Positions 34,579-55,141 of a DNA stretch of 57,243 nucleotides are shown here, one piece after another. Source of the DNA: Comamonadaceae bacterium (GTDB lineage: Bacteria; Pseudomonadota; Gammaproteobacteria; Burkholderiales; Burkholderiaceae_C); contig CANFHZ010000004.1 of NCBI GenBank assembly GCA_947446885.1, forward strand, positions 1-57,243, in the 5' to 3' direction. Numbering within the stretch: position 1 is the stretch's first letter; the number at the start of each line of letters is the position of its first letter. The translations under genes were made by a program, and so were the position numbers. The notes below the pieces were generated by a model, which had not been told where the DNA came from, did no database searches, and saw nothing but the letters and a program-made list of their open reading frames with translations.

Positions 34579-35058
34579 CTAGTACAAAGCTTGCATATAG
34601 ATTCGGTACACGTAGCCGTTGCGCAGGCCCCGTGTAGGATGACCTGTGTTGTATTCCGATAGTGCGGCCTGCAGCGCCGAATCACCCGGTCCTTTGACCA
34701 AAGCCCATTTTTCATACGACGCCACGAGCAACTTTTGCATAGCTTGTAAATTCGTACAGGGGTCAAAAGCCTGCTCCAGACTCACGCCAAAGCGCCCCAA
34801 ATTGGCGCTGTTGATCATGGCCAGGCCTACGTCAATGGAACGCACATCAGACATCCTCAGGAGATGGTTTGCTGTCACCAGCGCTTGCTCACGATTTGTG
34901 GGCTGAGGTCGCACGACATAGGGGCCATTCACACCAATAGCGAACGGGTTACCGCCGCTTTCCACCCGGACCAAGCGCATGCCGGTTTCAAGGGACACCA
35001 TGGGCGCGCAAGCGAGCATGAAAGACGTCAAGACCTGGAGCGACAAGCCAGCGCTCAT
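34579..35058 (-). CDS. virB1: VirB1-type lytic transglycosylase
   Basis: 159 residues with a short signal peptide. The SLT catalytic Glu is Glu33 in RVESGGNPFAIGVNG; later motifs are VGLAMINSANLGRFG and ALSEYNTGHPTRG, typical of goose-lysozyme-like VirB1 enzymes. It opens the peptidoglycan for assembly of the VirB apparatus and perhaps of the thin pilus, whose own PilT is missing. It is separated from the other virB genes and overlaps the relaxase stop (ATGA). Confidence 0.85.
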   Translation of the reverse strand: MSAGLSLQVLTSFMLACAPMVSLETGMRLVRVESGGNPFAIGVNGPYVVRPQPTNREQALVTANHLLRMSDVRSIDVGLAMINSANLGRFGVSLEQAFDPCTNLQAMQKLLVASYEKWALVKGPGDSALQAALSEYNTGHPTRGLRNGYVYRIYMQALY

Positions 35059-36087
35059 AGCGCGGGCCTCGGTGCGTTGTGGCCGACTTTCACGCCCAAA
35101 ATATGACCCTGAGCCCGCATGGTTTCAACCAGGTTCAGCGCCAACACCCGATCCGTAGGGTCCGAGGACGTTTGCAATATGTCGGCGACCTCGGTGTAAA
35201 ACCGTACCATACGCGCCTCGTTTTCTTGCGCCCTTTTGGCTGCAAGCGCTTGGGTTTGCGCTGTTTTGTCCCGTTCGGGTATTACGCCTCTGGCGCGCAT
35301 TTCCCGCACGGCCTGGCTTACGCCCTTAGCCCGCTTTAATCGAACTTTTCTGGTCGTAGCGGCAGCCTCGACACCGCGCAGGTTGAGCTGCTTGGCGAAC
35401 TCATTTCGCCACCGCTGCAAGTCAGCTTTGCGCGGATTCATCCGGTGGCCATCCTTGTCCACCATCTTTACCAGTACATGCGTATGGTGGTTATCGGTAT
35501 CGGCGTGGTGCGCCATCACATATTGGTGGCCGCCAAAGCTCTCTTGGATCGCCGCGCGTGCGGCGGCGCTGACGGCCGCACGGCCAACATGAGCCGGCAT
35601 GGAATACACCAACTTGAGGATTTGGCGTGGCGCCTTCTTACGGTCACCCTGGGGAGGGTTCAGCACCAACTCCGGCACCGTAGGGCCTCCAAGGGCCCAG
35701 GACCTGCGCAGCAACTCACGCCCTTGTAGGCCACGGTATACCTGCCCGCGATCATCTTCCAGTTCCAGTGATTCCTCAGCCTTGTGTCGGTAACGGCCAC
35801 TGCGGGAAACATATTCAAGGCTGCGGGCAAAGCCAACCATATCCGGTGTGTGGCCGGTGATTTTTACCATCACTTCCGTGCGCCTACGGACTATGGTCAG
35901 TACATGGTTTCGAACGGCGTTGGCGCGTTCGGATGCAGTGGCCATTGGCTTTGGCCTGAGCAACAATCGAATACCGATCTGTGATGGATGCTTGAGCGCC
36001 TGTTCGTCTCCCCGAAGCGGTTTTTTGCGCTCCTGCCAGATCATGGCAGCCTCGAACTTCGCCAGTTGTTCGTCGGTAGTCAACATG
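35055..36087 (-). CDS. MOBP-type relaxase
   Basis: 343 residues from ATG 36087, placed by AGGAAG seven bases upstream; a GTG at 36110 is possible. The three-histidine metal site is HADTDNHHTH at residues 194-203. Before it lies ITGHTPDMVGFARSLEYVSR, with Tyr92 (or Tyr99) the likely nicking tyrosine, then LEDDRGQVYRGLQGREL. It would nick oriT and pilot the strand into the recipient. It is short, with no primase or helicase domain, and has an about 70-residue N-terminal extension before the usual tyrosine region. The gene overlaps virB1. Confidence 0.85.
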
Positions 36088-36088
36088 C

Positions 36089-36823
36089 CTAGGCTTCCTG
36101 CAATGTCCACCGCCCCTGGGCATGCGAAAGTGCTTTGGCAACCTGCTCGATATGTGCTTCCACACGATCGAGCATCTGCACGGCTTTGGCCCCATACAGC
36201 GCACCCATTGACTTGTCACTTTCAAGTGTGTGGGTGATCTGGCGCAATGCATGGCTGATGTGCACCAATTCCAGATTGTGCTGACCCAAGGCCACGATGT
36301 CTGTAGGCGCCAATACCGGTTCCCGCAGTAAAAATGCACGCGTAATGGCTATCACCAACTTCTGCACAGATTGGTAACGTCCCGCGCGCACTTTTTCTCT
36401 CAACACCGACAACTCGGATGGTCTGAAGCGCAATTCCAAGCGCTCTGTGCTGGACTCATCGAGACCGAGTACAGCTTGCACGCCGGTGCTGGCAACATCC
36501 GCGAAATGGCCAGCAGTTCCAGTGCTTGGGCAAGTCTGCACAAGTAGTTGCTCAATCGCAATTGCCCGCAAGGCTGCCGTTAAGGTTTGGTTTCTCTCTT
36601 TGGCGCAGATCTGCGCACGCCGGTGCTCTTCTTTCGATGCAAAGGTGACGCAGCGCCGCACTCGTTTCTTGGATGGACGCGCAGGCAGAACCTGGCCGGA
36701 CAGAAGCATCGCAAGTGCTTCATCCAAAGCCGCATGAACGGGCCGCCCATTGGCCATGGCGCGTTGCTCAAAGTACGGGTCGAGCAATCCCAGATCAACG
36801 CGCAATGTGGGTTTGGTAGCCAT
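36089..36823 (-). CDS. mobC: MobC-like relaxosome accessory protein
   Basis: 244 residues. Two ribbon-helix-helix-like segments are visible, near 52-88 (RRCVTFASKEEHRRAQICAKE) and 123-160 (ELRFRPSELSVLREKVRAG), the second as in MobC/TraJ-type proteins that bind oriT and load the relaxase. The C-terminal helix HISHALRQITHTLES is typical (HLNQIARHLN-like). First gene of the leftward mobilisation operon; its start lies about 160 bases from the putative nic site. Confidence 0.75.
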   Translation of the reverse strand: MATKPTLRVDLGLLDPYFEQRAMANGRPVHAALDEALAMLLSGQVLPARPSKKRVRRCVTFASKEEHRRAQICAKERNQTLTAALRAIAIEQLLVQTCPSTGTAGHFADVASTGVQAVLGLDESSTERLELRFRPSELSVLREKVRAGRYQSVQKLVIAITRAFLLREPVLAPTDIVALGQHNLELVHISHALRQITHTLESDKSMGALYGAKAVQMLDRVEAHIEQVAKALSHAQGRWTLQEA

Positions 36824-36943: not shown

Positions 36944-36990
36944 TTGTCCAATATTGGACAAAAACCGGCGCGAGCCTATCCTGCACTTCT
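36944..36990 (+). other. oriT: Putative origin of transfer (oriT) with nic site
   Basis: A perfect 18-bp palindrome (TTGTCCAATATTGGACAA, 36944-36961) is followed 15 bases later by TATCCTGC at 36977-36984, which matches the MOBP/IncP nic consensus with cleavage between G36983 and C36984 on the + strand. It lies upstream of the mobC-like and relaxase genes in an AT-rich stretch (36824-36960) that also holds their promoter. The palindrome is a likely MobC-type binding site. Polarity predicts that the + strand is transferred with 37 kb onward entering first. Confidence 0.7.
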
Positions 36991-38922: not shown

Positions 38923-39354
38923 TTAATCCGCATCTCCTGCGCTGAACTCCGCAAGCCAGGCACGGTTTTCCTCATTCCAAGCGTCCTGGCCAGCGCCGTG
39001 CCCTGGGACTGGCGCATCACTCGCGTGGCCTGCGCCACCAGGGCTGCCCAGAAACTGGACGTCATAGGCCATGAAGTTGATGCCGAATTTGCCGTCCTTG
39101 CGCCAGCTCTCCAGTTGGCCATTGACAAAGACGGGGCGGCCCTTTTTGAGGTGCTTGAAACACAGATCGGCGAGTTTGAATTTGGTAGTAATCCGAAAGA
39201 AGTCAACGTGCGCGATGAATTGGCCCTCGCTGTTTTTGCGCCGTGCATTCACGGCCACGGGAAAGGTGCATACGGGCGAGCCGGCCGGGGTGTAGCGCAG
39301 TTCAGGCTCAGCAGCCAGGTTGCCCATGAGGGTGAAAGAGTTGAAGGTCGCCAT
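38923..39354 (-). CDS. ssb: Single-stranded DNA-binding protein
   Basis: 143 residues from ATG 39354; the open frame continues upstream but similarity starts at MATFNSFTLMGNLAAEPELRY. OB-fold motifs include GSPVCTFPVAVNAR, HVDFFRITTKFK and KGRPVFVNGQLESWRKDGK. The C-terminus ends LAEFSAGDAD and lacks the usual acidic DDDIPF-type tip. It coats incoming or lagging single strands and is a classic leading-region gene. Confidence 0.92.
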   Translation of the reverse strand: MATFNSFTLMGNLAAEPELRYTPAGSPVCTFPVAVNARRKNSEGQFIAHVDFFRITTKFKLADLCFKHLKKGRPVFVNGQLESWRKDGKFGINFMAYDVQFLGSPGGAGHASDAPVPGHGAGQDAWNEENRAWLAEFSAGDAD

Positions 39355-39388
39355 AAAGAGTCCTTGGGTGTTATCGGTGGGTTTTGTT

Positions 39389-40240: not shown

Positions 40241-41062
40241 CTAGGCTTTGAGGCGGCGCATCTCCTCGGCCAGCAGCCACAGTGCGCGGTTGAGCTTGAC
40301 GTTTTGGTCAATTCCCTGGACTTCGCGGGTGCGGGTGCGTTTGCCGGTAGCGCTGCGCGCGTTCAGGCCGCCACGGATCATGTTTTCTTGGACGCGGTTA
40401 AAAGTCGTCCACAGATCGCCTTTGGCATCATCCAAGCGCCGGGGTGCCAGGATTTGGGCCTCGGTCACCGGAGCGGGCGCCTGCGCGGTGTCGTACTTCA
40501 ACGCCAGGGCGGCATGGGCGAAAGCGTTTTGCTCGCCTGCGTTCAGCGTGAGGGCCTGCATGCCATCGCGGCTGCGGTCGACCGCTTGGAAGTCCGCCAA
40601 AACCCGGAATGCACCTTCGATCACGTTGTCGATCACATCCCCCGAATGGCGCAGGCGAATATCGTTCACGGTGTCACCGAAGACCATGCCATTGGCGCAC
40701 ACAAAGCGAAACACCCCGGCCATCATTTGGTAGGCGCTGCTGCCATCGTGGCTATTGAGCAAAACAATCTCGTTGGCCTCTTTGGCCTCGATTTGGCTGG
40801 CATGGCGCAGGCGCAGCATGTGCTTGGTGTGCGCGGTTTTGTCCTGGTCGCGCACACGGGTTTGGCAGGCCATGAATGGCTGAAAACCTTGCTGGCGCAG
40901 GGCGGTGAGCACCTCACTGGTGGGGATATAGGCATAGCGCTGGGAGCGGCTGGCGTGGGCCTCCTGGGCAAAGATAGAGGGCGCAGCGGCGCGGATGTGG
41001 TCATCAGACAGGGGGGCGTGGGAGCGCACGGCGATGGGTGCGCGGAATCTGCTGGCGAGCAT
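40241..41062 (-). CDS. DUF932 family protein
   Basis: 273 residues. The sequence matches DUF932 plasmid/phage proteins: RYAYIPTSEVLTALRQQGFQPFMACQTRVRD, MLRLRHASQIEAKEANEIVLLNSHDGSSAYQM-type core, and VCANGMVFGDTVNDIRLRH. Biochemical role unknown. DUF932 genes recur in leading regions of conjugative plasmids, including F-like ones, and are suspected to help establishment in the recipient. Confidence 0.85.
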   Translation of the reverse strand: MLASRFRAPIAVRSHAPLSDDHIRAAAPSIFAQEAHASRSQRYAYIPTSEVLTALRQQGFQPFMACQTRVRDQDKTAHTKHMLRLRHASQIEAKEANEIVLLNSHDGSSAYQMMAGVFRFVCANGMVFGDTVNDIRLRHSGDVIDNVIEGAFRVLADFQAVDRSRDGMQALTLNAGEQNAFAHAALALKYDTAQAPAPVTEAQILAPRRLDDAKGDLWTTFNRVQENMIRGGLNARSATGKRTRTREVQGIDQNVKLNRALWLLAEEMRRLKA

Positions 41063-41086: not shown

Positions 41087-41281
41087 TTAAGAATCAAGGG
41101 CTGGGGTTGCGGCGGTTTGCTGCAAGAGCCACAGCGCAGCGACTGCGGGGCCGCTGGTATCGGTGCTTTGCTGGGTGCGTTGGACGTGCGCGAAGAATTC
41201 GGCGTCCGTGATGGTTTCACCGTCTGCCAATGGCACGCCCGGCCTTGCGCTGGTGTCCTGGTCTGCGGTGCTGGTGTACAT
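41087..41281 (-). CDS. Small unrecognised protein directly behind repeat leader A
   Basis: 64 residues from ATG 41281 with a GGAGGGA site. Soluble and acidic, rich in Thr and Ala (GETITDAEFFAHVQRTQQSTD, VAALWLLQQTAATPALDS). It is the first gene after the long structured leader at 41321-41840 and precedes the DUF932 gene by 24 bases, so it heads that transcription unit. Confidence 0.6.
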   Translation of the reverse strand: MYTSTADQDTSARPGVPLADGETITDAEFFAHVQRTQQSTDTSGPAVAALWLLQQTAATPALDS

Positions 41282-41320
41282 AAAAATCCCTCCTGCGGTG
41301 TGGTTCTCGGTCCTGAATCC

Positions 41321-41840
41321 AGGTTGACCGGATTCCAAGATTCCGAGCCCATCCACTTGTCTGGTGGTGAGCTGCGTGGCCTTGGAAGCCTGTCGCCGTT
41401 TTTCCTGAGTTCGTCGCCGGTGAACGGTCTGCAGCGTGTGGACGTACAGCAAGGGAGCGTGGAATAAATGGAGGGGACCCGCACAGCGGGGAGCGGGCCG
41501 TTTATGCCGCGAAAGCCCTTGAAGGCTCCACCCCGTGCGCCAGAGCGCACACGCCTGGGGGTGGGAATGCCGGTGAACGCCCGCACGCTGCAAAAGTCAC
41601 CGACCAAGCGACGAACACAGGCAAAACGGGAGCAAGACGGGCTTTACGCAAGGACCGGCTGCGAACCACCAGGCCGCGCGGCGAGCGCCCGCCAGCGGCC
41701 ACAGGCCGCTCTGGCTCAAGGCAAGCGCAGCGCGCAGGCGTCAGGGATCGATAGCCCGCAGGGGCGAGACGGAACGGACCAGGCCGGGCCGGCTCGATGC
41801 GCAGCACCAGAGCCCGACCCCCTGCAGGGGGTGACGCACG
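41321..41840 (-). repeat. Structured leader repeat A
   Basis: About 520 bases repeated at 45601-46130 with high identity, plus a short third copy at 42864-42925. It lies upstream (leftward sense) of the small gene and DUF932. Perfect hairpins include GTGCGC/GCGCAC (41535-41550), AGCGGCC/GGCCGCT (41694-41710), a seven-pair stem with one bulge (41475-41499) and the 14-bp palindrome at 41818-41831. No consistent reading frame is conserved between copies. Confidence 0.8.
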
Positions 41841-41940
41841 AAGAACGGCAGAACCCGACACAAAACACGGCGGGAAGGAACAGAAACTGCCATGGACACG
41901 ACACCACACACAGGCGCCAAAACAACATGCGTTGAAGACA

Positions 41941-42198
41941 ATGAAAGGCTTCGCAAACCCCACGCATTCCATGCAAGCGGAGAAAGTCCCCAGTACCATG
42001 ACACCCAGTCTCACCACCTTCTTGACAGACGATGGCGTCAAAATCACGCCCAAGCACATTCAAGTTCAGTACGTGAAATCACTACCCCAAGACCAACACC
42101 AAAGCGATACGGATATGCATTTCAACAATGGGGACGTCGTCCATGTGCCAGCCGAGCACGACGACGTGGTGGAAATGCTGCGCACGTTCCTCGATTAG
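41941..42198 (+). CDS. Small hypothetical protein, opposite strand to its neighbours
   Basis: 85 residues from ATG 41941; ATG 41998 (MTPSLTTFLTDDG) may be the true start, as the more protein-like part begins there (VKITPKHIQVQYV, FNNGDVVHVPAEHDDVVEMLRTFL). The alternating beta and final helix vaguely resemble FlbD-like small proteins. A hairpin-plus-T-run terminator on the + strand (42344-42376) supports expression. No family assigned. Confidence 0.45.
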   Translation: MKGFANPTHSMQAEKVPSTMTPSLTTFLTDDGVKITPKHIQVQYVKSLPQDQHQSDTDMHFNNGDVVHVPAEHDDVVEMLRTFLD

Positions 42199-42286
42199 CC
42201 CCAGCCAAGGCGAAGCACTCGCCTGAGAAACACCGCGCCCTGCCCAGACTTCCGCCAGAACACAGAGCAATCAGGGCGCGCAGCGC

Positions 42287-42380
42287 CCCTCCCTCGCAAG
42301 GGCGCAGCCTTTGCGCACCCCGGGGATAAGCCGCGCGGCAAAGGGGGGTGTCCCCCCAAGGGACACGCCCCTTTTTGAGC
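42287..42380 (+). repeat. Repeat D1
   Basis: GCAAGGGCGCAGCCTTTGCG, then CCCCGGGGATAAGCCGCGCG and GGCAAAGGGGGGTGT, recur almost unchanged at 43065-43130. Both copies end at CGCCCCTTTTTGAGC, but the intervening hairpin differs in length. Confidence 0.7.
42344..42376 (+). terminator. Rho-independent terminator on the + strand
   Basis: GGGG + GTGTCCC, five-base loop, GGGACAC + CCCC with one unpaired G, followed by TTTTT. It lies about 145 bases after the small + strand gene. Confidence 0.6.
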
Positions 42381-42438
42381 AGCACCCACCCAGCGCTGCG
42401 GTGACCGCAAAGCTGCTACAGCTTGACGCAGGGCGCCC

Positions 42439-42463
42439 AAAAAAAGCCGGGATAAACCCGGCT
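42439..42463 (-). terminator. Rho-independent terminator after the two small membrane genes
   Basis: Leftward, AGCCGGG, a five-base TTTAT loop, CCCGGCT and then seven T. It lies 21 bases beyond the stop of the 38-residue gene. A textbook intrinsic terminator. Confidence 0.85.
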
Positions 42464-42483
42464 GCGCAGGAATGCTGCAGGAT

Positions 42484-42600
42484 TTACAGCAGGGTCGCGT
42501 TCGGCGCATCCGGCTGGTCTTTGCCAACCGTATGGCGCAGCACCACGGCCAGAATGACCATGCCAATGAAGCCACCCAGCATGAGATAGTGTTCGAACAT
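42484..42600 (-). CDS. 38-residue single-pass membrane protein
   Basis: Starts ATG 42600 after a strong AGGAGG site and reads MFEHYLMLGGFIGMVILAVV then LRHTVGKDQPDAPNATLL to TAA. One membrane helix with a short polar tail. It follows the 59-residue membrane gene by nine bases and is followed by a clear terminator, so the two form a small operon. Too short for family assignment. Confidence 0.65.
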   Translation of the reverse strand: MFEHYLMLGGFIGMVILAVVLRHTVGKDQPDAPNATLL

Positions 42601-42609
42601 AAGAGCCTC

Positions 42610-42789
42610 CTATTTCCTAAAGCCAAGTGACGTCAGCACTATAACGACGAAGCCGGTGGCAAGCAACTCGATCACCACGCGGGCGGAACCTCCGGTGATC
42701 AACTGCACGACGCCGTTGCCAGCGATCAGCGCACCCGAGGTGCGCAAGGCCGTCAAAAGCATGGCCGTGTCCAGATACGGTTTTTTCAT
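42610..42789 (-). CDS. 59-residue two-pass membrane protein
   Basis: Starts ATG 42789 (MKKPYLDTAMLLTALRTSG) after GGGAGC. Two hydrophobic segments: ALIAGNGVVQLI and VVIELLATGFVVIVLTSLGF. Partner of the 38-residue membrane protein downstream. It lies directly behind repeat leader B. Possible roles include entry exclusion or membrane-acting anti-defence; both are guesses. Confidence 0.6.
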   Translation of the reverse strand: MKKPYLDTAMLLTALRTSGALIAGNGVVQLITGGSARVVIELLATGFVVIVLTSLGFRK

Positions 42790-42863
42790 AAAAAGCTCCC
42801 GAAAGCAGAGCAACATTGCTCAGCCCCGAAGCACCCTGGCGCAGCGCAGAACTCCAGTGGACC

Positions 42864-42925
42864 CTGGAATAAATGGAGGGGACCCGCGCAGCGGGGAGCG
42901 GGCCGTTTATGCCGGGAAAGCCGCT
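42864..42925 (-). repeat. Structured leader repeat B (short copy)
   Basis: GGAATAAATGGAGGGGACCC and GCGGGCCGTTTATGCCG-type sequence shared with leader A, differing at a few bases. It lies about 75 bases upstream of the two small membrane genes. The stem with one bulge is intact. Confidence 0.75.
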
Positions 42926-43064
42926 GGAATTTGAGAACGCCAGGGTATGCTGGGAAGCACAGCAACGAGCCCACCACAACGCCTGCGCGCCGAAGGTTCC
43001 ACCCCAACCCAGCGTGCACGGCACGCTCTGACCACAGCCCTCGCGCGAGCGCACTGTGGATCTC

Positions 43065-43199
43065 CCTCCCCCACGCAAGGGCGCAGCCTTTGCGGACCCC
43101 GGGGATAAGCCGCGCGGCAAAGGGGGGTGTGGTGGATGCGCCGGGCATAGCCCACCGTGGCGACAGCCCAGCGCAGTAGCCATACGCCCCTTTTTGAGC
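43065..43199 (-). repeat. Repeat D2
   Basis: Second copy of the D1 sequence (43065-43130) and of its CGCCCCTTTTTGAGC end (43185-43199). The hairpin between them is longer here, with imperfect pairing of GGGGTGTGG and CCATACGCCCC. Together with leader B it fills the gap between the 81- and 59-residue membrane genes. Confidence 0.65.
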
Positions 43200-43313
43200 G
43201 CCCGCACCACCAAGAAGCCCGAGGAGCGCGACCTCGCGCACCGAGCTGACCAAAGCCCTTGCGCAGCACACTGCCGCGCCTCCCCCGCCTAAACCCCACT
43301 CAGCGCACCACGA

Positions 43314-43559
43314 TCACCGCCAGGTCCTTGGCCACAAACCACTGCGGTACAGACCCAGCAAACTCGTCGCCGTGAACCCCACCTGCTGCACCAACAGTCC
43401 CATGGCCTGTATGCGCAGCGCCCAGCTAATCAGCAGCAGGTTGGCCAGCAGGAATGCCAACCATCCCCAACGCGCATGCCGGGTTTGGCTGGCCAGCATG
43501 GCCGCACCAATTAGACCTGTGACAGCGCCAGACCATTCCAAAACAAGGTTCAGCGTCAT
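43314..43559 (-). CDS. Small multi-pass membrane protein
   Basis: 81 residues from ATG 43559, seven bases after GAGGA. Three hydrophobic stretches (LVLEWSGAVTGLIGAAMLAS, WGWLAFLLANLLLISWALRI, LLVQQVGFTATSLLGLY). The pattern resembles small plasmid membrane proteins and half of a PnuC/SWEET-like bundle, but no assignment is safe. It follows the ParB-like gene by 20 bases and is probably in its operon. Confidence 0.65.
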   Translation of the reverse strand: MTLNLVLEWSGAVTGLIGAAMLASQTRHARWGWLAFLLANLLLISWALRIQAMGLLVQQVGFTATSLLGLYRSGLWPRTWR

Positions 43560-43578
43560 CACAGGTTCCTCGTCGGAT

Positions 43579-45531
43579 TCAGCGCAAAGGCACCGGCAGC
43601 CAGCCCGTACCGCTCAGAGCCTGCGCGGCAAAGGCGATGGCTTCGGTCTTCTTGAGCTTGGGCATGTCCTTCGCGGCCTCAGCGCTCTTGGCCTCAGTTA
43701 CCGCCTCCATCAGTTTGGCCTTGGGCACGAGATCCAAATAGTTCTCCGCGGTCGGCTCCCACCATGCGCGCATGTCCAAGGCCACCGCCTTGGCAAGTCC
43801 TGCGCACAGGTCTTTGCTTTTGGCGCGGGATTGCATGGCATCGACCGTCTCAGCCGTGCCCAGCACGATCATGGACAAGGACACCTCCAAAGGCTGCGCG
43901 ATAAACCATGCAAGCCAATCGGAGCGCTCGGGTGGCAACAAAGCTTCCATGCGCGAACGTTCCGCAATCACCACATCCGCTGCGCGACTGGTGCCCACCG
44001 TAGCGGACGCATTGGCAAGGCGATGCCACGCACTGCTCAGGCTGACTTTGATGGGGTGTTCATGTCCGGCGAAGGTGTCGAACATGCTGCACGCCATGCG
44101 ATGTGCCAGCACAGCTAGCGCCACTTCGTGGTGAGACAGCAAGGAAGCCTGAATCGCAGCGGTGCGGTGGGCGGTGAGATTGAGCATCAGACGCTCGGGT
44201 ACATCGTCACCCTCGGGCGCGTCCGCGCCTGGCACGGCTTCACCCTGCCCTGCACCCGCATCGGCCTGAGGAATGCTCTCGCCACTGCGGGCAGCAGCGC
44301 CACCCTCGCGCGCCTTCAATGCCGCCATGATGGTTTTGTAGTCTGCGCCGCGTCCGAGGTTTTCTAAACGCTTGATCTTTCCCCCTGCCAAAGTGAGCAC
44401 CACCCCGGCGAGGTCTTTTTCTGTAGCGGTCTTGTCAATCAGTTGCTCGGCCAAAGCGGCATGCTGGGCCTCCACTGCGACCATTTGGTCGTGCAAGTGA
44501 TCCACATCCTCATCGTCCTCGCTGTCGGCGATTTGCGTGTGCAAACTGTTGAGCTGCGCCTCCAGCGCCAGACGCTTGTCTGCGTGAACAGGCGACTCGG
44601 GCAGGTGTTTCACGGGCATCGCAAAGTACTGAGTCCGCTCGGCGTAGCCGTACTCCAGATGCACATCAACCCACTGCCACCCTTTGGCGCGAAGCTGCGC
44701 GGCTTGCGCCTCAAAAGCCTCTGCCACCAACATGTCCAAGAGCAGGGGATCGGTGAGGTAGCGCGTCCCGTTCTCGCTGAACAGGTCTTCGCGCACAGCG
44801 CCACCGGCTTGGCTGTAAGCGGCTAATCCCACCAGTTTGACCCGTTGATCGTCGTCGCTGACTTCATCCTGCGCAATCGTGCGGCGAATATGGGAAGCCG
44901 TGCGCGCATAGTGCGGCAAGCTTTTATAGAGCATGACTTGGCGCTTCGGGTCCTCCAGTGCCACAAGGGCCATCACCTGATCCAATTGGATATCCCCCTT
45001 GCGGTAGGCCTTCATGAGTTCGGGTGCCAGTCCTGCCAGCTTCAAGCGACGCAGCACATGCAGCACCGTGACCCCGTATTGCGTGGCAATGCTCTCAGCA
45101 CTGCGGCCCTGCGCATGCAAAGCCCGAAACGCTTCAAATTCATCGGCGGGGTGCATCGCCTCTTGGCTGATGTTCTCCATCAACCCGACAACCGTGCCAT
45201 CGACAGCGTCCACCTGTTTGCATTCAACGGGGAAATCCTGCGCAATGCGACCCTCTTTGGCAAGCAGCTGAAATCCCCGTAAGCGGCGACCACCGGCCAC
45301 TACTTGATAGCGTTCCGAGTCAGGCTCCGCGCTCACATGCAGGGCAGCGAGTTGCCCTTGGGCTTGCAGCATGGCTGCCATCTCAGCGATGCCCTCTTTG
45401 GACGGTGCCGTTTTACGCACTTGATGGGGTGCCAGTACCAAGCGGTCCAAAGGAACCAGCATCGATTGGCGCACCGTGAGGGGAATTGCTGCGGCAATTG
45501 CAGCGGTTTCAGGGGAAGCGTTTGTGTTCAT
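43579..45531 (-). CDS. ParB/RepB/Spo0J-family protein of the leading region
   Basis: 650 residues from ATG 45531 after GGAGA; the frame is open into the leader but similarity starts at MNTNASPETAA. The ParB/Srx core is clear: VPLDRLVLAPHQVRK, VVAGGRRLRGFQLLAKEG and GLMENISQEAMHPADEFEAF, then a helix-turn-helix (SAESIATQYGVTVLHVLRRL). A coiled coil (HLHDQMVAVEAQHAALAEQL) and a large C-terminal region follow. No ParA is adjacent, and long ParB-like proteins of this kind are a recurring leading-region family in F-like plasmids, so a role in establishment is more likely than classical partition. Confidence 0.85.
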   Translation of the reverse strand: MNTNASPETAAIAAAIPLTVRQSMLVPLDRLVLAPHQVRKTAPSKEGIAEMAAMLQAQGQLAALHVSAEPDSERYQVVAGGRRLRGFQLLAKEGRIAQDFPVECKQVDAVDGTVVGLMENISQEAMHPADEFEAFRALHAQGRSAESIATQYGVTVLHVLRRLKLAGLAPELMKAYRKGDIQLDQVMALVALEDPKRQVMLYKSLPHYARTASHIRRTIAQDEVSDDDQRVKLVGLAAYSQAGGAVREDLFSENGTRYLTDPLLLDMLVAEAFEAQAAQLRAKGWQWVDVHLEYGYAERTQYFAMPVKHLPESPVHADKRLALEAQLNSLHTQIADSEDDEDVDHLHDQMVAVEAQHAALAEQLIDKTATEKDLAGVVLTLAGGKIKRLENLGRGADYKTIMAALKAREGGAAARSGESIPQADAGAGQGEAVPGADAPEGDDVPERLMLNLTAHRTAAIQASLLSHHEVALAVLAHRMACSMFDTFAGHEHPIKVSLSSAWHRLANASATVGTSRAADVVIAERSRMEALLPPERSDWLAWFIAQPLEVSLSMIVLGTAETVDAMQSRAKSKDLCAGLAKAVALDMRAWWEPTAENYLDLVPKAKLMEAVTEAKSAEAAKDMPKLKKTEAIAFAAQALSGTGWLPVPLR

Positions 45532-45600
45532 ACCATTCTCCAAAATAGCCCGTTGGGGCCGACTGACCAGTGACCGACTGGCTGCGAGGTTCTGACTCCC

Positions 45601-46130
45601 AGGTTGACCGGATTCCAAGATTCCGAGCCCATCCATTTGTCTGGGGGTGAGCTGCGTGGCCTTGGAAGCCTGTCGCCGTTTTTCCTGAGTTCGTCGCCGG
45701 TGCACTGGCTGCAGCGAGATGGCGGGCATGAAGGGAGCGTGGAATAAATAGCGACATGGGTCTGCGCACACACCGTGAGGCAGACGACATGGGCGGCTTT
45801 ATGCCGCGAAAGCCCTTGAAGGCTCCACCCCGTGCGCCAGAGCGCACCAGCCTTAGGGTGGGAATGCCGGTGCCCAAAAGCGCGCTGCAAAAGTCACCGA
45901 ACAAGCGGCGAACACAGGCAAAACGGGAACAAGACGGGCTTTACGCAAGGACCTGCTGCGAACCACTAGGCCGCGCGGCGAGCGCCCACAAGCGGCCACA
46001 GGCCGCTCTCGCTAAAGGCAAGCGCAGCGCGCAGGCGTTAGGGATCGATAGCCCGTATGGGTCGAGACGGCCAGCCGGGCCGGCTTGATGCGCCGCACCA
46101 GAGCCCGACCCCTCACCAGGGGAACGCGCA
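45601..46130 (-). repeat. Structured leader repeat C
   Basis: Second long copy of leader A, 70 bases upstream of the ParB-like gene. Shared hairpins: GTGCGC/GCGCAC (45832-45847) and AGCGGCC/GGCCGCT (45991-46007). Where the sequence differs from A, pairing is kept: GTCTGC/GCAGAC (45760-45785) replaces A's stem at 41475-41499, and CCCCT/AGGGG (46109-46122) replaces the palindrome at 41818-41831. Confidence 0.8.
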
Positions 46131-46331
46131 GGCCTTTGCTGCAACACGGCAAGGCAGGTGGACTATTCCCAATGACCCGAGCCTGTTTCTCACGTAACCT
46201 CAGGGTGGAATCAGAAACTTATTCTTGCCTTCCACCAGGCCTACCCGCAATATGGAGTCTCACCGACAGCACCAGCCCTTGACGGCGAAAGCTGTATAGA
46301 CACATCCCACCAACCATTTCCGCCAACACGT

Positions 46332-47087
46332 ATGCGCCACGGCCACACACTTTTCAAGACACTATGCATTGCCCTGCTGTTGCTTGCGCATGCCATTGCG
46401 GTATTCGGAGCTGAAGATTTCTCTGCTTGTCCCCAGTTCTTTCTCAACAGAACACCGCCAGCAATTGCCAAACGTCCGACCGACCGCGCACTCTGTTACG
46501 ACTCCTTTGCCATTCTTTATTCTGGGGAAAGCAAGACGCCCGTATTTGTGGCCGAGCGTCTCAACCGGGCATCCATAGCGGATGCCGGCGAGAAGCGTAC
46601 GGACAAGTTTTTTGCCGATGCCCGACTGCGGTCAGCGGAGAGGGCTACGTTGGATGATTACAAAGGCAGCGGATTCGACCGCGGGCACATGGCACCAGCG
46701 GCAGATATGCCCAACCCAACCGCCATGGCGCAGAGCTTCTCTCTTGCCAATATCGTTCCCCAAGCGCGTGAACACAACCGCGGCGTCTGGGCAAAACAAG
46801 TGGAGGCAGCAACGCGCAAATATGCATCCCGAGCCGCTGGTGACGTTTATGTCATCACGGGCCCGGTGTACTGGCCCAGCATCGCTGAAAGCCCGAGCAT
46901 CGGACCTGGTCGCATCCGAGTGCCCAAGTACCTGTTCAAACTGGTCTACGACCAGCAACAGAACCGTGCTTGGGCGCATTGGCACGAGAATTCAGATGCG
47001 ACCAAGGCTTCTCCGCCCATCAGCTACAACGATCTGGTGAAGCGCACGCAGGTTAACTTTTTCCCAAACACAAGCCCTGTGCGATGA
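46332..47087 (+). CDS. Exported DNA/RNA non-specific endonuclease
   Basis: 251 residues with a signal peptide (LFKTLCIALLLLAHAIAVFGA). The NUC-family active site is DRGHMAPAAD at residues 116-125, with His119 as the general base, followed by SLANIVPQAREHNRGVWAKQVE, where the Asn/Glu metal ligands lie. It degrades nucleic acids in the periplasm or outside. Conjugative plasmids carrying such nucleases are known. The ribosome site is weak. First gene of the cargo region on the + strand. Confidence 0.88.
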   Translation: MRHGHTLFKTLCIALLLLAHAIAVFGAEDFSACPQFFLNRTPPAIAKRPTDRALCYDSFAILYSGESKTPVFVAERLNRASIADAGEKRTDKFFADARLRSAERATLDDYKGSGFDRGHMAPAADMPNPTAMAQSFSLANIVPQAREHNRGVWAKQVEAATRKYASRAAGDVYVITGPVYWPSIAESPSIGPGRIRVPKYLFKLVYDQQQNRAWAHWHENSDATKASPPISYNDLVKRTQVNFFPNTSPVR

Positions 47088-49021: not shown

Positions 49022-50776
49022 ATGCAGATACGCCAGATCAAGGTCTCGAACTTTCGCGGAATCAAGTCGCTTGACTGGAAACCGGGCTCGCCCTTCTGCT
49101 GCTTGATTGGGCCGGGAGACTCAGGAAAGTCAACCGTCCTGGACGCGGTTGAGGCCGCGCTTTCCTCCCGCTGGTTCGCCTTCACAGAGCCGGATTTTCT
49201 CGCTTGCGACACCACCCGTCCCATCGTCATCGAGGCGACTATCGGCGAGTTGTCCAAGGCTCTGAAATCTGATGAGCGACTTGGGCTCTATGTTCGCGGA
49301 TGGACATCTGCGGGGGAGTTGCGCGACGAGCCGGAAGACGATGACGAGCCCGTCCTTACCGTGCGCTTGACCGTGGACGCCTCGATGGAACCCGTCTGGG
49401 AGTTGACCTGCGATCGCGTTGATGACCCGCGCACCCTGTCAAACAGGGATCGGGCTCTATTCGGACTGGTCAGGCTTGCTGGAGAAGACGCCAGACACCT
49501 CGCATGGGGACAAGGATCAGTTCTTTCCAGATTGACCGGCGACACGCACGAAGCATCCACGCGGTTGGCTCATGCCTACAAGGCAGCTCGAGAGAACGCA
49601 AAGCTCGATGAGATCGAATCGCTGGCCAAAGCGGCGAAAAAGGCGGAAGAATTTGCCAAGGGATTGGGCGCCTATGTGGAGGGCTCGTATGAGCCCGGCC
49701 TTGAACTTGGGCGCTCAGGACTGTCCTCCGGCTCCATTGCCTTACATGATGACGGAGTCCCGCTAAGGTTGGCAGGACTTGGCACGCGTCGGCTCGCGAC
49801 CTTGGCCATCCAGAAGTCGGCCATAAGCGAAGGGGCCATTGTGCTTGTCGATGAAATAGAGAATGGCTTAGAGCCACACCGGATCATCGGAGCCATCGCC
49901 CAGCTCAAAGCCGATCAGGATATATCGGCGGCAGCAGATCGGCCCGTCGGACAAGTACTCATGACAACCCATTCGGATGTAGCTATCGCAGAAACAGGAC
50001 CTGAACGACTGCGAGTCGTTCAGATGACCCGGCCGGGGAGGCAAGCGACTGTCTTGGCGCCAACAGCGCTAGAACCCATCCGCGTGTTGCTGCGATTCAC
50101 TCCAAGGGCATTGTTCTCTAAACGCATCCTTGTGACCGAGGGAAACACCGAGCTTGGGTTGCTGCTTGGTATTCGGGAACATTGGCCTGCCAGGCACGCG
50201 GGCAAGCCCATCGAACAATTGGGCGTTGCGATAGCGGAAGGCAACGGCGCGCAGGCGCCAGCCATGGCATTGACCTTGCAGGAATTGGGCTTTCAAACGG
50301 CCATCTTTCGGGACTCGGATACGGCTCTTTCCCCCGCTGAGCAAGCCTCGCTGGCCGCTGCGAGCATTCAAGTATTTGAATACGCAGGCAATCTTAATAC
50401 CGAGCAATCGATCTTCGGCGCGGCCCCCGACGATCTTGTGCAAGAGCTGCTTGTATATGCCCGGTCCGAGCGAGGCGATGATTTCATCGACAACAGTCTT
50501 GTCGCCAAAATCACTGACCTGTCTGTCGAGAGGGTGCGAGACCACTTTAAAGGCTGGCATTTGTTTACTACTCTGGACGGGTCTCAGCTTCGCACAGCCA
50601 TCGCGGATGTGGCGTGCGGGAAGCCGCCGCCAGGCAAAAAAGACAAAAAGCCTTGGTTCAAAGATCAACGCATCGCCCGTGGCCTTGCTCCGATGGTATG
50701 GCGCATAGCGGAGGCTTCTCCTGGCTCGCCGCTGGCTACGACCCTCAATCAAGCTGAGGCGTGGTTGTATGCCTAA
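49022..50776 (+). CDS. gajA: OLD-family ATPase-nuclease (GajA-like, Gabija defence)
   Basis: 584 residues. ABC-type ATPase domain: Walker A at 30-38 (GPGDSGKST), signature region GLGTRRLATL, Walker B VLVDEIENGLEPHR, and the switch His in MTTHSDVA. A C-terminal TOPRIM nuclease has its Glu in VTEGNTE (371-377) and the DxD pair Asp431/Asp433 in FRDSDTA. Size and domain order equal GajA of Gabija systems, which cuts DNA when nucleotide levels fall during phage attack. The 3' end overlaps the helicase gene by eight bases, the usual gajAB arrangement. Confidence 0.85.
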   Translation: MQIRQIKVSNFRGIKSLDWKPGSPFCCLIGPGDSGKSTVLDAVEAALSSRWFAFTEPDFLACDTTRPIVIEATIGELSKALKSDERLGLYVRGWTSAGELRDEPEDDDEPVLTVRLTVDASMEPVWELTCDRVDDPRTLSNRDRALFGLVRLAGEDARHLAWGQGSVLSRLTGDTHEASTRLAHAYKAARENAKLDEIESLAKAAKKAEEFAKGLGAYVEGSYEPGLELGRSGLSSGSIALHDDGVPLRLAGLGTRRLATLAIQKSAISEGAIVLVDEIENGLEPHRIIGAIAQLKADQDISAAADRPVGQVLMTTHSDVAIAETGPERLRVVQMTRPGRQATVLAPTALEPIRVLLRFTPRALFSKRILVTEGNTELGLLLGIREHWPARHAGKPIEQLGVAIAEGNGAQAPAMALTLQELGFQTAIFRDSDTALSPAEQASLAAASIQVFEYAGNLNTEQSIFGAAPDDLVQELLVYARSERGDDFIDNSLVAKITDLSVERVRDHFKGWHLFTTLDGSQLRTAIADVACGKPPPGKKDKKPWFKDQRIARGLAPMVWRIAEASPGSPLATTLNQAEAWLYA

Positions 50777-52166
50777 TGCTTCAGACCTGTTCAATTTGGG
50801 GAATGCGGCCGTCGTAGCGCCAGCGGGTCATGGCAAAACCGAGATCATCGCCAATGTAGCGGCCTTGGGCCAACGAGCTTTGATCCTGACTCACACGCAC
50901 GCGGGGGTCCACGCCATTCGCTCACGCCTCAAGCGCCTTGGAGTACCCCGAGCTCGAGTCGCCGTTGACACTATCGCAGGGTGGTGCATGCGATATTCCC
51001 ATGCGTTCCCCGGAATTGCAAAGCCTCCCGCATGCATGCCACAAGGCGCCGCCGAATGGGATCAGCTCTACCGGGGCGCTCGATTGACCTTGAATGTCGC
51101 TGCCGTCCGCACGGTGATTGCCTCATCCTATGACCGAATCCTGATCGACGAATACCAGGACTGCGGCAGCGTGCAGCACGAGTTGGCGACAGAACTTGCG
51201 CGCATTGTCCCGACACTAATCTTTGGCGACCCCATGCAAGGCATCTTCGAATTCGCCGGGGCCGCTCTGCGCTGGGATGTTGACATCCATCCGCTGTTCC
51301 CATTCGCAGGAACCCTTGAAACACCCCACCGTTGGGCGGGTAAGAACCCCGCCCTGGGACACTGGATCTCGGAAACACGCGAGAAACTTCTGGCGGGTAA
51401 GCCCATCGACCTGGCCGATCCACGAATTACGTTCAAACAGTCCAACGACGCATTTGATTTGGGGGTCCTGTTCGAGGGCATGGATGGCAAAGAGGGCAGC
51501 TTTGCAGCCCTTCATTGCAACAAGACCATTTGCTATCGATTGGCGAAGGCAGCTGGTGGCGGCTACCAGGCGATTGAAGAAGTAGCCGCCGGCCGTCTTC
51601 GGAAATTTGCAGGCCTCTGGGATCAGGCATCGGACGGCGCAGGACGACTTGAGGCCATTACAAGCCTACTACTCGATAGCTTCTCGATCAAGGCACCGGC
51701 AAATGGCGTTGACGTCGATCCAGAGGATGCCGAACTCGAAACCGTATTGCGAGAGATTGAGATAACCCTCGATGTCGGCAACGGCGCTGAAGCTGCGGCT
51801 CAGATCATGGTTCTTACCCGAAAGCATTCGCGTTGGAAACTATTCCGCAGTGAGTTATGGCGCGATGCTGAGCGAGCTGCGACAGAGATCGCGAATGGCC
51901 GTGCAGAGTCAATGGACAACGCAATCACAAACGTGCGTCAGCGAGTCAGCATGTCGGGACGCAAGTTGCCCAAGCGAACTGTTTCAACTCCTCTGCTTTT
52001 GAAGGGTTTGGAATTCGACCACGTAGTGATTCCTGACGCATCACATTTCGCGACACAACAATATTCACAAGCGAAGCTTTTTTATGTGGCGATTTCGCGA
52101 GCGACGAGGAGCCTAACTATCAGCGCTCCTAATCGCTGGATAACATTGCCGCCTCCGAGCATTTAG
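50769..52166 (+). CDS. gajB: UvrD-like helicase (GajB-like, Gabija defence)
   Basis: 465 residues. Helicase motif I is APAGHGKTE (17-25), motif II LIDEYQD (Asp127, Glu128), motif III GDPMQGIFEF, and motif VI FYVAISRATRSLTIS. The superfamily 1 fold is shorter than UvrD itself and close to GajB length. In Gabija, GajB senses DNA ends or termini and activates GajA. Its coupling to the OLD nuclease gene supports the system call; subtype is not certain. Confidence 0.85.
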   Translation: MPNASDLFNLGNAAVVAPAGHGKTEIIANVAALGQRALILTHTHAGVHAIRSRLKRLGVPRARVAVDTIAGWCMRYSHAFPGIAKPPACMPQGAAEWDQLYRGARLTLNVAAVRTVIASSYDRILIDEYQDCGSVQHELATELARIVPTLIFGDPMQGIFEFAGAALRWDVDIHPLFPFAGTLETPHRWAGKNPALGHWISETREKLLAGKPIDLADPRITFKQSNDAFDLGVLFEGMDGKEGSFAALHCNKTICYRLAKAAGGGYQAIEEVAAGRLRKFAGLWDQASDGAGRLEAITSLLLDSFSIKAPANGVDVDPEDAELETVLREIEITLDVGNGAEAAAQIMVLTRKHSRWKLFRSELWRDAERAATEIANGRAESMDNAITNVRQRVSMSGRKLPKRTVSTPLLLKGLEFDHVVIPDASHFATQQYSQAKLFYVAISRATRSLTISAPNRWITLPPPSI

Positions 52167-52360: not shown

Positions 52361-53056
52361 TTACAAAAGGGAAAGGTTGGACGTTTCCGAGCTCGCCTTT
52401 TTGGACCGAGGCTCCTCTGCCCGCGCGCGCAACTTGTCTGCACTAAACGGCACCATGAAGTCTCCAATTGGTCCACTGCCCTCAATCCAATCCTGGTAAC
52501 GGTCGGGCGGCAAGATAGCCACCATGCGTTTTTCGTCGGTGGGCTTGTGGAACTGGTTCATCAACGGATGAGTATCAGCGTTGATGGTGAGCATGGTGAA
52601 GCTAAAAGCCCAGCCGTTTTTGGGCTCCTTCCAGCTGGACCACAGACCTGCAATCCCGATTGGGCAGCCATCCACATGCCCCACCCGCGTAGCAACGGCG
52701 CGGCCGCTGCGCCAGTCCGGTTCGTAGAACGCATCCACTGGAATGATGCATCGCTGGTTACGCTTGAAAGCCTCCCTAAAACTGGGCTTTTGAGACGCCG
52801 TCTCACTGCGGCAGTTGTAGGTGCTTTTGGTGATCTTGGTGTCCGTGGCCCAATGCGGTACCAACCCAAACAGACCGTTGACTGCGTGCGCCGCAGGTAC
52901 TGCCCCATCACCAACGTCCGCATGCGGGTGCTTACAAATGAAAGCGCCCAGGTAGCCCGGCCACATGTCTAGCTTGCCGTCCTCCGCAGGCGGCTGCACT
53001 GCGAAGACTTTGAGGAAATTTTCCCGTTCCTTCAGAGCTTGGTAATGGCTGCACAC
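52361..53056 (-). CDS. SRAP-family abasic-site protein (YedK/HMCES-like)
   Basis: 231 residues from GTG 53056, chosen because the next codon gives the catalytic Cys2 (MCSHYQALKE) and AAGGAACAG lies ahead of it. Other conserved residues: Asn/Glu in YNCRSETASQ, Glu in DAFYEPDW, and the active-site His in NQFHKPTDEKRM. SRAP proteins form a thiazolidine crosslink with abasic sites in single-stranded DNA. The promoter has -35 TTGAAG and -10 TATAGT with a LexA box exactly between them, so it is SOS-controlled. Confidence 0.9.
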   Translation of the reverse strand: MCSHYQALKERENFLKVFAVQPPAEDGKLDMWPGYLGAFICKHPHADVGDGAVPAAHAVNGLFGLVPHWATDTKITKSTYNCRSETASQKPSFREAFKRNQRCIIPVDAFYEPDWRSGRAVATRVGHVDGCPIGIAGLWSSWKEPKNGWAFSFTMLTINADTHPLMNQFHKPTDEKRMVAILPPDRYQDWIEGSGPIGDFMVPFSADKLRARAEEPRSKKASSETSNLSLL

Positions 53057-53077
53057 AGTGCCTGTTCCTTCCGGTTG

Positions 53078-53106
53078 ACTATACTGTATTAATGTACAGT
53101 CTTCAA
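53078..53106 (-). promoter_or_regulatory. Promoter of the SRAP gene
   Basis: Leftward: TTGAAG (53106-53101), a 17-base spacer, TATAGT (53083-53078). Predicted start about 53070, giving a short leader with AAGGAACAG before GTG 53056. The spacer is filled by the LexA box. Confidence 0.65.
53084..53099. promoter_or_regulatory. LexA box between the SRAP gene and umuD
   Basis: CTGTATTAATGTACAG fits the LexA consensus CTGT-N8-ACAG perfectly. It overlaps the umuD start codon (ATG 53092) and lies in the SRAP promoter spacer, so one operator would repress both divergent genes until the SOS response. Confidence 0.85.
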
Positions 53107-53696: not shown

Positions 53697-53993
53697 ATGC
53701 CTGTTGATAACTCTGAATTGGTCCGTTGGCAGTCGCTCGATGCTGCCATGGTGCTGAGAGCTCTGGCCGACTATGCGAAGGAAGATCCCACGTATGTGCC
53801 GCGCCTCAATACACGGTCTTCGCGCTGGCATGTCTCTGTGGCTGGCAACGACTTCGAAATCCTTTGTACGGGGCCCAAGTTCTGGGATGGGCGGGCCGAT
53901 TGCGGGGGTGGTGGCGCACTGGACTTGGCGATGCACCTGTTTGGTATGAATTTCAAGAAAGCGGCTCACTTGCTTGTGGAGCGCAATTTATGA
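53697..53993 (+). CDS. Small zinc-ribbon-like (primase-type) protein of the cassette
   Basis: 98 residues from ATG 53697 after GGGGGAGGACG. The end FEILCTGPKFWDGRADCGGGGALDLAMHLF resembles the N-terminal CHC2/DUF3991-type module of DNA primases and TOPRIM proteins (…GGGGxxDLxMHLxGxxFxxA…), with only two cysteines kept. The protein ends right after this module. It overlaps the recombinase start (ATGA), so the two are made together. Confidence 0.55.
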   Translation: MPVDNSELVRWQSLDAAMVLRALADYAKEDPTYVPRLNTRSSRWHVSVAGNDFEILCTGPKFWDGRADCGGGGALDLAMHLFGMNFKKAAHLLVERNL

Positions 53994-55141
53994 AGTTGTT
54001 GTTCTCGACCCAGGATTTGGAAATCGGTGGCAGGACGCTTGAAGGCTTCCCGCTGTTGCTTGATGACGACTGTTTGCCCCTGCAGCCAGCACAGAACTTT
54101 CTCTTGCATGCACTGCTGGACAGTGGCTCAGCGCGCAGCAAATTGACCTGGGAAGCGGTTGGGCGCCGTCTCTATGACTACTTTGCGTTTCTCAATGCCA
54201 ATGGCCTCCAGTGGGATCAAACAGATGCACCGGTGGGCACATTGCCATTAAGCCGTTATCGAGACTGGGCCGCCGGGGAGTTGCATCTCTCCCCGAGAAC
54301 AATTAACAAGCGGCTTGCTTTGGTTGTTCGCTTCTATGAGTGGGCATGCCGCAAGGGGCACATTGGCGATTTGCCTTTTTCCTACCGACAGGTCAGAGCG
54401 CATCACAAGCAAGGCATGTTGGCGCATGTAAAAAAGGACGCGCAGATGGTTGAGCGGGCATCGGTATTGTTGCGGGAATATCGGTCACCCATAAAATTTC
54501 TCACCAGTGATCAAGTGCAGGTTTGCCGAGAGCATCTACCCAATCCAAGCCACCGCCTACTCTTCGAACTGATGCTGCGATCGGGTTTGCGATCCTGTGA
54601 GGCACGAACATTTCCTGCGCGATATGTTTTCAACCCTGCTGGCCGTAAGGACCTCGTTGCAGGCCAGGTAATCCGTGTCGACTTGAACCCGCAAGAGCTT
54701 TCAATCAAATTTGACAGGCCTCGTTCCGTCGATGTCCCCTGGCGATTGATGGAGGACATGAACGCGTACAAGAACTTGGAACGGGAGCTTCGGAAAAATC
54801 GATGTGACGTGGAGCCTGACGCGTTGGTGCTGAGCTCGTTCGGAACAGAGATGGCCAGGACTAGCGTTGTTGGCCTGTTCGGTGAGCTCTCCAAAAGAGT
54901 GGGGTTTCCAGTTACAGCCCACATGCTGCGCCACACCTATGCCACTTTTACACTGGCTGCGCTGCGTAAAAGCCCCGACTTCAGGGGGGAACCTTTGCTA
55001 TACGTGCGTGACCGCTTGGGACACTCAGACGTTCAGACCACTGCGGAATATCTGCACCTGATCAACCAGTTGGAGGCACAACTGGTACTTGCACATGAAG
55101 ACTTCATTGATGGAGTTTTCGGTGCTGGGGCCCATCCATGA
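53990..55141 (+). CDS. Tyrosine recombinase (first of the cassette, TnpA-like)
   Basis: 383 residues from ATG 53990; the frame is open further up but overlaps the zinc-ribbon gene. A SAM-like DNA-binding N-terminus (TINKRLALVVRFYEWACRKG) is followed by the catalytic domain with Arg in MLRSGLRSCEAR, HMLRHTYAT (His and Arg) and LGHSDVQTTAEYLHL (His and nucleophilic Tyr). All catalytic residues are present. Size and order match TnpA of Tn554-type elements. Confidence 0.88.
   Translation: MKLLFSTQDLEIGGRTLEGFPLLLDDDCLPLQPAQNFLLHALLDSGSARSKLTWEAVGRRLYDYFAFLNANGLQWDQTDAPVGTLPLSRYRDWAAGELHLSPRTINKRLALVVRFYEWACRKGHIGDLPFSYRQVRAHHKQGMLAHVKKDAQMVERASVLLREYRSPIKFLTSDQVQVCREHLPNPSHRLLFELMLRSGLRSCEARTFPARYVFNPAGRKDLVAGQVIRVDLNPQELSIKFDRPRSVDVPWRLMEDMNAYKNLERELRKNRCDVEPDALVLSSFGTEMARTSVVGLFGELSKRVGFPVTAHMLRHTYATFTLAALRKSPDFRGEPLLYVRDRLGHSDVQTTAEYLHLINQLEAQLVLAHEDFIDGVFGAGAHP

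Follow-up and report, generated by a model that had tools for sequence, protein, structure and literature searches.

Candidate Frpo-type single-strand promoters and a conserved adjoining module in the putative leading region of a Comamonadaceae contig

The stretch of DNA analysed here, referred to as the window, comprises 57,243 nucleotides (nt) of a Comamonadaceae bacterium (contig CANFHZ010000004.1 of assembly GCA_947446885.1). It contains a relaxase operon with a nic-like site beside it and, to the right, repeated hairpin-forming sequences lying in front of leftward genes. We compare these repeats with Frpo, the single-strand promoter of the F plasmid. On the plus strand, a full element consists of an imperfect hairpin of ~320-350 nt, followed directly on its 3' side by a multi-helix module of ~100 nt, which we call C. 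The new point of this analysis is C, a conserved and covarying structure with a preference for the transferred strand (T strand), whose neighbours in widely differing plasmids and integrative elements are single-strand promoters, some proven and some candidates. The features of the locus are as follows.

35055-36110, minus strand: relaxase gene (Pfam Relaxase above its cut-off; closest NCBIfam family MobP1, below cut-off)
36977-36984, plus strand: nic-like site TATCCTGC, beside the relaxase operon
38923-39363, minus strand: SSB gene (PF00436), a leading-region gene on the same strand as the other leading genes
40241-41062, minus strand: DUF932 protein gene (PF06067, 2.1e-52)
41087-41281, minus strand: gene for a small protein of 64 residues, the first behind copy 1; no family match
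41319-41849, plus strand: full element, copy 1, with the leftward small protein and DUF932 genes behind it (from sequence comparison and folding)
41331-41344, plus strand: direct repeat GATTCCAAGATTCC, copy 1, between hairpin and gene; a similar sequence occurs in related elements
41359-41674, plus strand: long imperfect hairpin, copy 1 (predicted fold)
41454-41517, plus strand: hairpin tip (module B), copy 1
41737-41840, plus strand: C module, copy 1; 68.9 bits to covariance model R1, copy 1 being among its building sequences
42610-42789, minus strand: gene behind the partial copy for a small protein, predicted by eye to be a membrane protein; no family match
42859-42922, plus strand: third, partial copy, consisting of the hairpin tip (module B) only, 64 nt; no C module
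43579-45531, minus strand: ParB-like protein gene behind copy 2 (ParB families matched below their cut-offs)
45599-46130, plus strand: full element, copy 2, with the leftward ParB-like gene behind it (from sequence comparison and folding)
45611-45624, plus strand: direct repeat GATTCCAAGATTCC, copy 2
45642-45988, plus strand: long imperfect hairpin, copy 2 (predicted fold)
45737-45811, plus strand: hairpin tip (module B), copy 2; its internal hairpin differs
46034-46130, plus strand: C module, copy 2; 63.7 bits to model R1, copy 2 not being among its building sequences

A preliminary description of this locus had reported three copies of one hairpin-rich sequence, each preceding a leftward gene or gene group. 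This observation is partly confirmed. Two copies are full and form direct repeats (41319-41821 and 45599-46112), with blocks of 151, 264 and 39 nt at 91%, 91% and 95% identity; the third is the 64-nt hairpin tip without C, not a full copy. The genes behind them are as described: the small protein and DUF932 protein, a small membrane protein, and the ParB-like protein. A search of the bacterium's own genome with 601 bases of copy 1 matched copy 2 at 85% over 522 bases and the 64-nt piece at 94%, with no further matches in that genome, and a model search placed C only at the two window sites.

The sequence TATCCTGC at 36977-36984 is presumably an RP4-type nic motif. The corresponding 7-base pattern, ATCCTGY, occurs 14 times in the window against 14.8 expected, neither more rarely nor more commonly than chance. 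If TATCCTGC is nic, its polarity suggests that the plus strand is transferred, that the leading region extends to the right and that the leftward genes are read from the plus strand. The location of TATCCTGC beside the relaxase operon supports the earlier proposal that the plus strand enters first, provided that the motif is of this type. Given this assignment, the window elements lie in a leading region, ahead of genes whose template is the transferred strand. The set of SSB, ParB-like and DUF932 genes is common to the window and the F leading region.

The hairpins were assessed by comparison with shuffled sequences. In 551-nt stretches, the plus strand gives z-scores of -5.8 (copy 1) and -4.9 (copy 2), so that both full copies fold beyond chance; the minus strand of copy 1 reaches -4.3. 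The 64-nt repeat is the tip of a single long imperfect stem on the plus strand. Both full copies, and the F Frpos as positive control, give such a stem-loop on the transferred strand. At 12 tip sites (three in the window, nine in relatives), 40-109 further stem pairs surround the tip, and the plus strand (z from -1.4 to -17.2) is more stable than the minus strand in 11. Over 41 elements, the mean hairpin z is -4.87 on the plus strand, with 25 below -3, and -3.28 on the minus strand, with 21 below -3; the mean for 39 control stretches is -0.78, with five below -3. Related plasmids and contigs were thinned for the counts of strand stability, promoter boxes and hairpins of the integrative and conjugative element (ICE) type, yet those retained are not independent. 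In 84 thinned elements, the plus strand is the more stable one for 65 hairpins (flanking controls, 37/82) and for 77 C modules (flanking controls, 33/58), which agrees with the expectation that the incoming strand is the better-folding one. The consensus of 39 ICE-type hairpins has 66 pairs at -33.4 on the plus strand versus 33 pairs at -14.2 on the minus strand, and single folds of the same hairpins contain 238 and 140 G-T pairs, respectively. A further count, 215 G-T versus 12 A-C contacts on the plus-strand hairpin structure, was dropped as strand evidence because it leans on the strand used for prediction: the minus-strand structure gives 57 versus 5 in its own reading.

Module C contains helices P2, P3, P5 and P6 with compensated changes. 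In a MAFFT alignment that was not fitted to the structure, there are six double-change cells versus 1.1 in shuffles, a number reached by none of 500 shuffles; these double changes fall in two of 14 pairs, which 69 of 500 shuffles also reach. The fitted alignment (135 distinct rows), which by construction leans towards the modelled structure, shows double changes in 13 of the 14 pairs and 116 double-change cells, versus 3.3 and 34.3 in shuffles, and the covariation is destroyed by sliding the partners. Covariation, whose absence the preliminary description had named as refuting its proposal, is thus present in C. Hairpin P4 has no fixed sequence, and 55 distinct segments form a stem of at least two pairs. 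Helix P1 looks conserved, but was rejected as a statistical claim: a free search of the flanks gave no more pairing than shuffled partners.

The loops of C fall into few classes. Those of P3 are GNA, GNNA or GNAB in 110 of 113 elements; the search pattern fixed the first G, and the evidence comes from the remaining positions. Of the P3 loops, 65 have four letters: 32 GNYA, 20 GNAB and 13 GNRA, the last being the loop favoured in RNA. P6 has a GNA loop in 85 of 113 elements, in a GC-GNA-GC setting without a UNCG reading on the other strand. Three-base GNA loops are stable in DNA. The same is stated for GNNA and GNAB loops in PMC8373063, citing Nakano 2002. C was found neither in Rfam nor in the open-access literature searched, and the original Frpo papers could contain it.

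Conserved sequence combined with covariation is typical of RNA families, and these elements might be structured RNA: a minus-strand leader of the leftward genes, or a noncoding plus-strand RNA running rightward. The minus strand of the hairpins also folds better than shuffles (mean z, -3.28), and CC-GNA-GG on the plus strand reads as cUNCGg, an RNA-stable loop, on the minus strand. Against a minus-strand RNA, the plus strand is more stable in most elements and its consensus has twice the pairs; P4 shows 21 G-T versus 5 A-C contacts in the plus reading (63 segments, two of them chance matches); and the GC-GNA-GC loops lack the UNCG reading. A plus-strand RNA is at odds with the small share of GNRA among the four-letter P3 loops, and nearly every leading-type gene found would lie antisense to it (see below). 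Rfam gave no match to the window at gathering score; two matches of up to E 5 in 41250-46200 (E 3.0 and 3.6) lie outside the elements. Strand stability, P4 contacts, loops and gene orientation led us to drop RNA of either strand as the main explanation, and we regard it as very improbable indeed.

C is present on many different plasmid and integrative-element backbones. A BLAST search with the element returned 203 plasmid records, most of which share C or the hairpin tip, and a DNA pattern derived from C matched at least 116 stretches of genome contigs and 11 of viral contigs. A regular expression yielded 148 C elements in 128 loci (102 unique cores), including two chance matches inside coding sequence (L077 and L078), which were dropped from later counts. 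These earlier counts refer to regular-expression elements, the following ones to matches of covariance model R1, which was built from 20 C sequences, none from F. The model gave 143 matches at E 1e-5 over 98 sources, the search covering the window and 97 of 162 fetched loci, some of them without a match. In the window's order, 24 of 250 genomes have matches, its own genome included. Integrative elements carry C as well, as do plasmids of Pseudomonas, Burkholderia, Xanthomonas and a Synechocystis. One C sequence had no match in 50,697 phage records.

The hairpin tip has a distribution of its own: sequences ~87-91% identical to the 64-nt tip occur in plasmids of Shinella, Paracoccus and the actinobacterium Curtobacterium (L012, L013 and L018), and C was not detected in the 8-10 kb fetched for these loci.

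Another possibility is that the repeats owe their distribution to recombination or to a miniature mobile element and serve no function. Closely similar copies do occur within one element, and recombination is described between CUPs, the repeated leaders of IncN plasmids, in PMC5371602 and PMC3490853. The spread of C across genera, its covariation and its fixed polarity led us to reject an unrelated repeat or mobile miniature, and we give this explanation hardly any credence.

The polarity of C is nearly constant. In 32 of 33 multi-copy loci the C copies are co-oriented (75 copies, not all independent). Gene context was examined by homology in 72 of the 127 pattern loci, namely those with a C model match, taking one C each; the queries were picked from C-bearing loci, and matches were binned, so that one gene may count twice. 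At least one leading-type gene is present in 57 of the 72 loci, and DUF932 in 40. The preliminary description had named homologues mostly outside leading regions as a refutation, and this is not what we found. Of the leading-type gene matches near C, 108 of 109 are antisense to it, a figure from these 72 pattern-derived loci without a random-locus control. The orientation of the nearest gene as given by a plain open reading frame caller proved uninformative, GC-rich intergenic DNA being full of spurious frames; with a codon-position filter instead, the majority is antisense to C in 77 of 84 elements (16 low-GC elements left out). According to annotation, relaxase or tra genes lie 5' of C in L004, L007, L009, L010, L011, L015, L017, L147, L149, R388 and F. 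In the Synechocystis locus L153, a traJ/traK pair lies 5' of C and trb genes lie on the other side, and the Acidovorax locus L148 is ambiguous, its LPD7 protein being encoded on the strand of C. No transfer side is assigned to L005, L006, L008 and L150-L152.

R46 and a Pseudomonas putida locus each have one C between two rightward genes, still in T-strand orientation. In the IncN plasmid L006 a rightward gene follows one C, whose neighbour on the other side lies outside the stretch. C keeps its transfer polarity between rightward genes and is therefore not simply the leader of the next gene. This polarity, which a promoter of the neighbouring gene would not need, fits a different role, that of a single-strand initiation site. 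The folded module on the T strand would be recognised by a primase or primosome factor of the host, which would prime the complementary strand there, and synthesis would run leftward through the hairpin and turn it off, the promoter role of the hairpin being secondary or shared. The position of C, 3' of the hairpin, is the spot from which a primer would let synthesis erase the hairpin. Masai and Arai, in 1997, reportedly dealt with Frpo in both transcription and priming, to judge by their title. Frpo is described as serving both functions in PMC7736820. Against priming, leading-type genes accompany C in 57 of 72 loci and almost all of them are antisense to it, C lies beside proven promoters in F, and one C sequence had no match in the phage records. 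We think it unlikely, though a serious second, that C is primarily a priming site.

Double-strand promoters provide another possible explanation. IncN CUPs are repeated leading-gene leaders with such promoters, two of them ending in C, and in the window a direct repeat lies between hairpin and gene. By analogy, the window elements would contain double-strand sigma70 promoters under an ArdK/KorA-like repressor that is lacking in the recipient, and their folding would be incidental. No sigma70-type double-strand promoter was found in 41240-46200, a weak argument given that 0.7 would be expected by chance. The strand-biased folding, the loops and the covariation would all be left unexplained by this type of regulation, which we consider very improbable.

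Our preferred reading is that the full elements are probably divergent Frpo-type single-strand promoters with C as a docking part, a model built on the predicted folds and their strand bias, polarity, gene context, the covariation of C and its kinship with the sequence adjoining Frpo1 and Frpo2. The transferred plus strand would arrive single-stranded in the recipient, where the two-part structure could form. The hairpin of ~320-350 nt would offer a double-stranded promoter surface to its reader, presumably RNA polymerase, and transcription, from a putative start point, would run off the hairpin base leftward into the small protein/DUF932 genes and the ParB-like gene. On the 3' side, C would stay folded as single-stranded DNA and may act as a docking or anti-SSB part that makes the hairpin usable. 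When the second strand is made, both structures would vanish and the genes would presumably be shut off. We rank this model first and C as a priming site second; both are interpretations. As to C itself, we see an even chance that it is a distinct and widespread functional class of single-stranded DNA structure, selected as folded DNA and not as RNA or duplex. A conserved host factor would then recognise C as the conjugating strand enters, and C would be shared by F, IncN, IncW, environmental plasmids and integrative elements with otherwise unrelated promoter hairpins.

Several observations weigh against the promoter reading. In a coarse scan (300-nt windows, 12 shuffles), copy 1 passed the z threshold of -2.8 but copy 2 was not flagged, and many other F windows besides those of the Frpos fold strongly in the same scan. 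C alone, in the window, folds no better than shuffles (z, -0.03). Compensated changes in the long hairpin are slight: two Watson-Crick types occur in 4 of the 66 pairs of the ICE-type hairpins, and standard pairs amount to 99.1% versus 98.2% in shuffles. On the T strand these stretches are rich in G and A, which can alone favour G-T pairs and contributes to the difference in stability between the strands. Three of four elements from Polaromonas (one) and Acidovorax (three) fold no better on the T strand, the R46 CUPs give no hairpin signal (z, -1.6 and -1.5), and no significant C was found in ColIb-P9, for which ssi promoters are reported. The exception to co-orientation is L139, a contig from a viral collection with five C copies in mixed orientations. 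In the largest cluster of related hairpins (48 loci), the four members scanned contain TTGACG-16-TACAGT (9 of 12 matches to the -35/-10 boxes) on the arm that would be the non-template strand, but a general -35/-10 signature in the hairpins was rejected, as it is not enriched over 42 clusters (six at 8 or more matches versus 3.5 expected, with a shuffle maximum of 7), and the best -35/-10 pairs of the window stems have 6-7 of 12 matches. This last scan cannot decide, because the proven Frpo1 and Frpo2 of F, at best 7 of 12, score about the same as the window.

Other features surround the elements. The leading region holds a second repeat, of 66 nt (42286-42351 and 43065-43130, 94% identical); 300-nt windows at its first copy fold strongly (z to -7.6 on the plus strand and -9.4 on the minus strand), and among 162 loci searched its core was found only in those of its own genome. 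Just past copy 2, a rightward gene for a DNA/RNA non-specific endonuclease (46332-47087, PF01223) diverges from the leading genes. Further right lie adjacent genes for GajA-like and GajB-like proteins (49022-52166), a Gabija-type anti-phage pair (PADLOC E 1.2e-155 and 4.3e-110), and a gene for a SRAP-domain protein (52361-53092, PF02586). A tandem gene pair occupies the right end (53726-56802), the first encoding a tyrosine recombinase; no family was matched by the second. Instead of a plasmid, the contig may represent an integrative element.

By expressing genes early from the incoming single strand, a plasmid is believed to withstand host defences better. Published surveys of such promoters (PMC11541004 and PMC12826799) used BLAST with five known Frpo/ssi sequences, in one case with 13 putative ones added. 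The covariance model of C finds candidate sites elsewhere, such as those in the genomes of the window's order mentioned above. C may allow the transferred strand and the leading region to be predicted from sequence alone, and what it implies for the sequence adjoining the F Frpos can be tested.

ColIb-P9 (IncI1) resembles the window in that two stretches, one ahead of ssb and one ahead of the gene at 35334, which we take to be the published ssi sites, fold better on the T strand than on its complement (-97.8/-82.9 and -93.7/-83.5). The best C match in this plasmid, non-significant at E 0.84 and located ahead of ssb on the expected strand, was not counted as C. The CUPs of the IncN plasmids pKM101/R46 are, like the window elements, repeated leaders (~250-650 bp) of leftward leading genes in one orientation, and a C module ends two of the four long ones. 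Unlike the window elements, they have a double-strand sigma70 promoter (TTGACT-17-GATAAT, present in R46), and T-strand folding beside their C is weak. ArdK binding sites in CUPs are described in PMC6289460. R388 (IncW) has two T-strand C modules, each 3' of a stretch that folds better on the T strand, as in the window. Their helices P2 and P5 are compensated, and the modules have diverged, with 44 positions between the two sides of P6.

The closest parallel is F. Frpo1 and Frpo2 share with the window elements a place in the leading region ahead of the ssb/ParB-like and DUF932 gene groups, and each has a long imperfect T-strand hairpin with a C module directly 3'. In 300-nt windows, Frpo1 and Frpo2 fold at -79.0 and -80.0 on the T strand versus -71.3 and -68.8 on the complement. 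Model R1, to which F did not contribute, finds C directly 3' of Frpo1 (E 1.5e-9) and Frpo2 (E 3.5e-7). P5 of the F modules is changed to GGAG/CTCC, and, unlike in the window, most of the P6 mini-hairpin is missing. Deletion of Frpo1 or Frpo2 left the fusions behind them without a significant rise in recipients, according to PMC9849209. The statement that the window sequences do not look like Frpo itself holds for the hairpin sequence, where a blastn comparison (word size 7) detected no similarity (best E 0.58), and fails for the architecture and the homologous adjoining C. Frpo hairpins and window hairpins share architecture and strand bias and no detectable sequence. The preliminary interpretation, candidate single-stranded promoters that may form an undescribed family, is partly supported; the window elements, two full ones and a partial third, would represent a divergent branch of Frpo and not an unrelated family, because the full ones have the Frpo architecture and a C homologous to the sequence beside both F Frpos.

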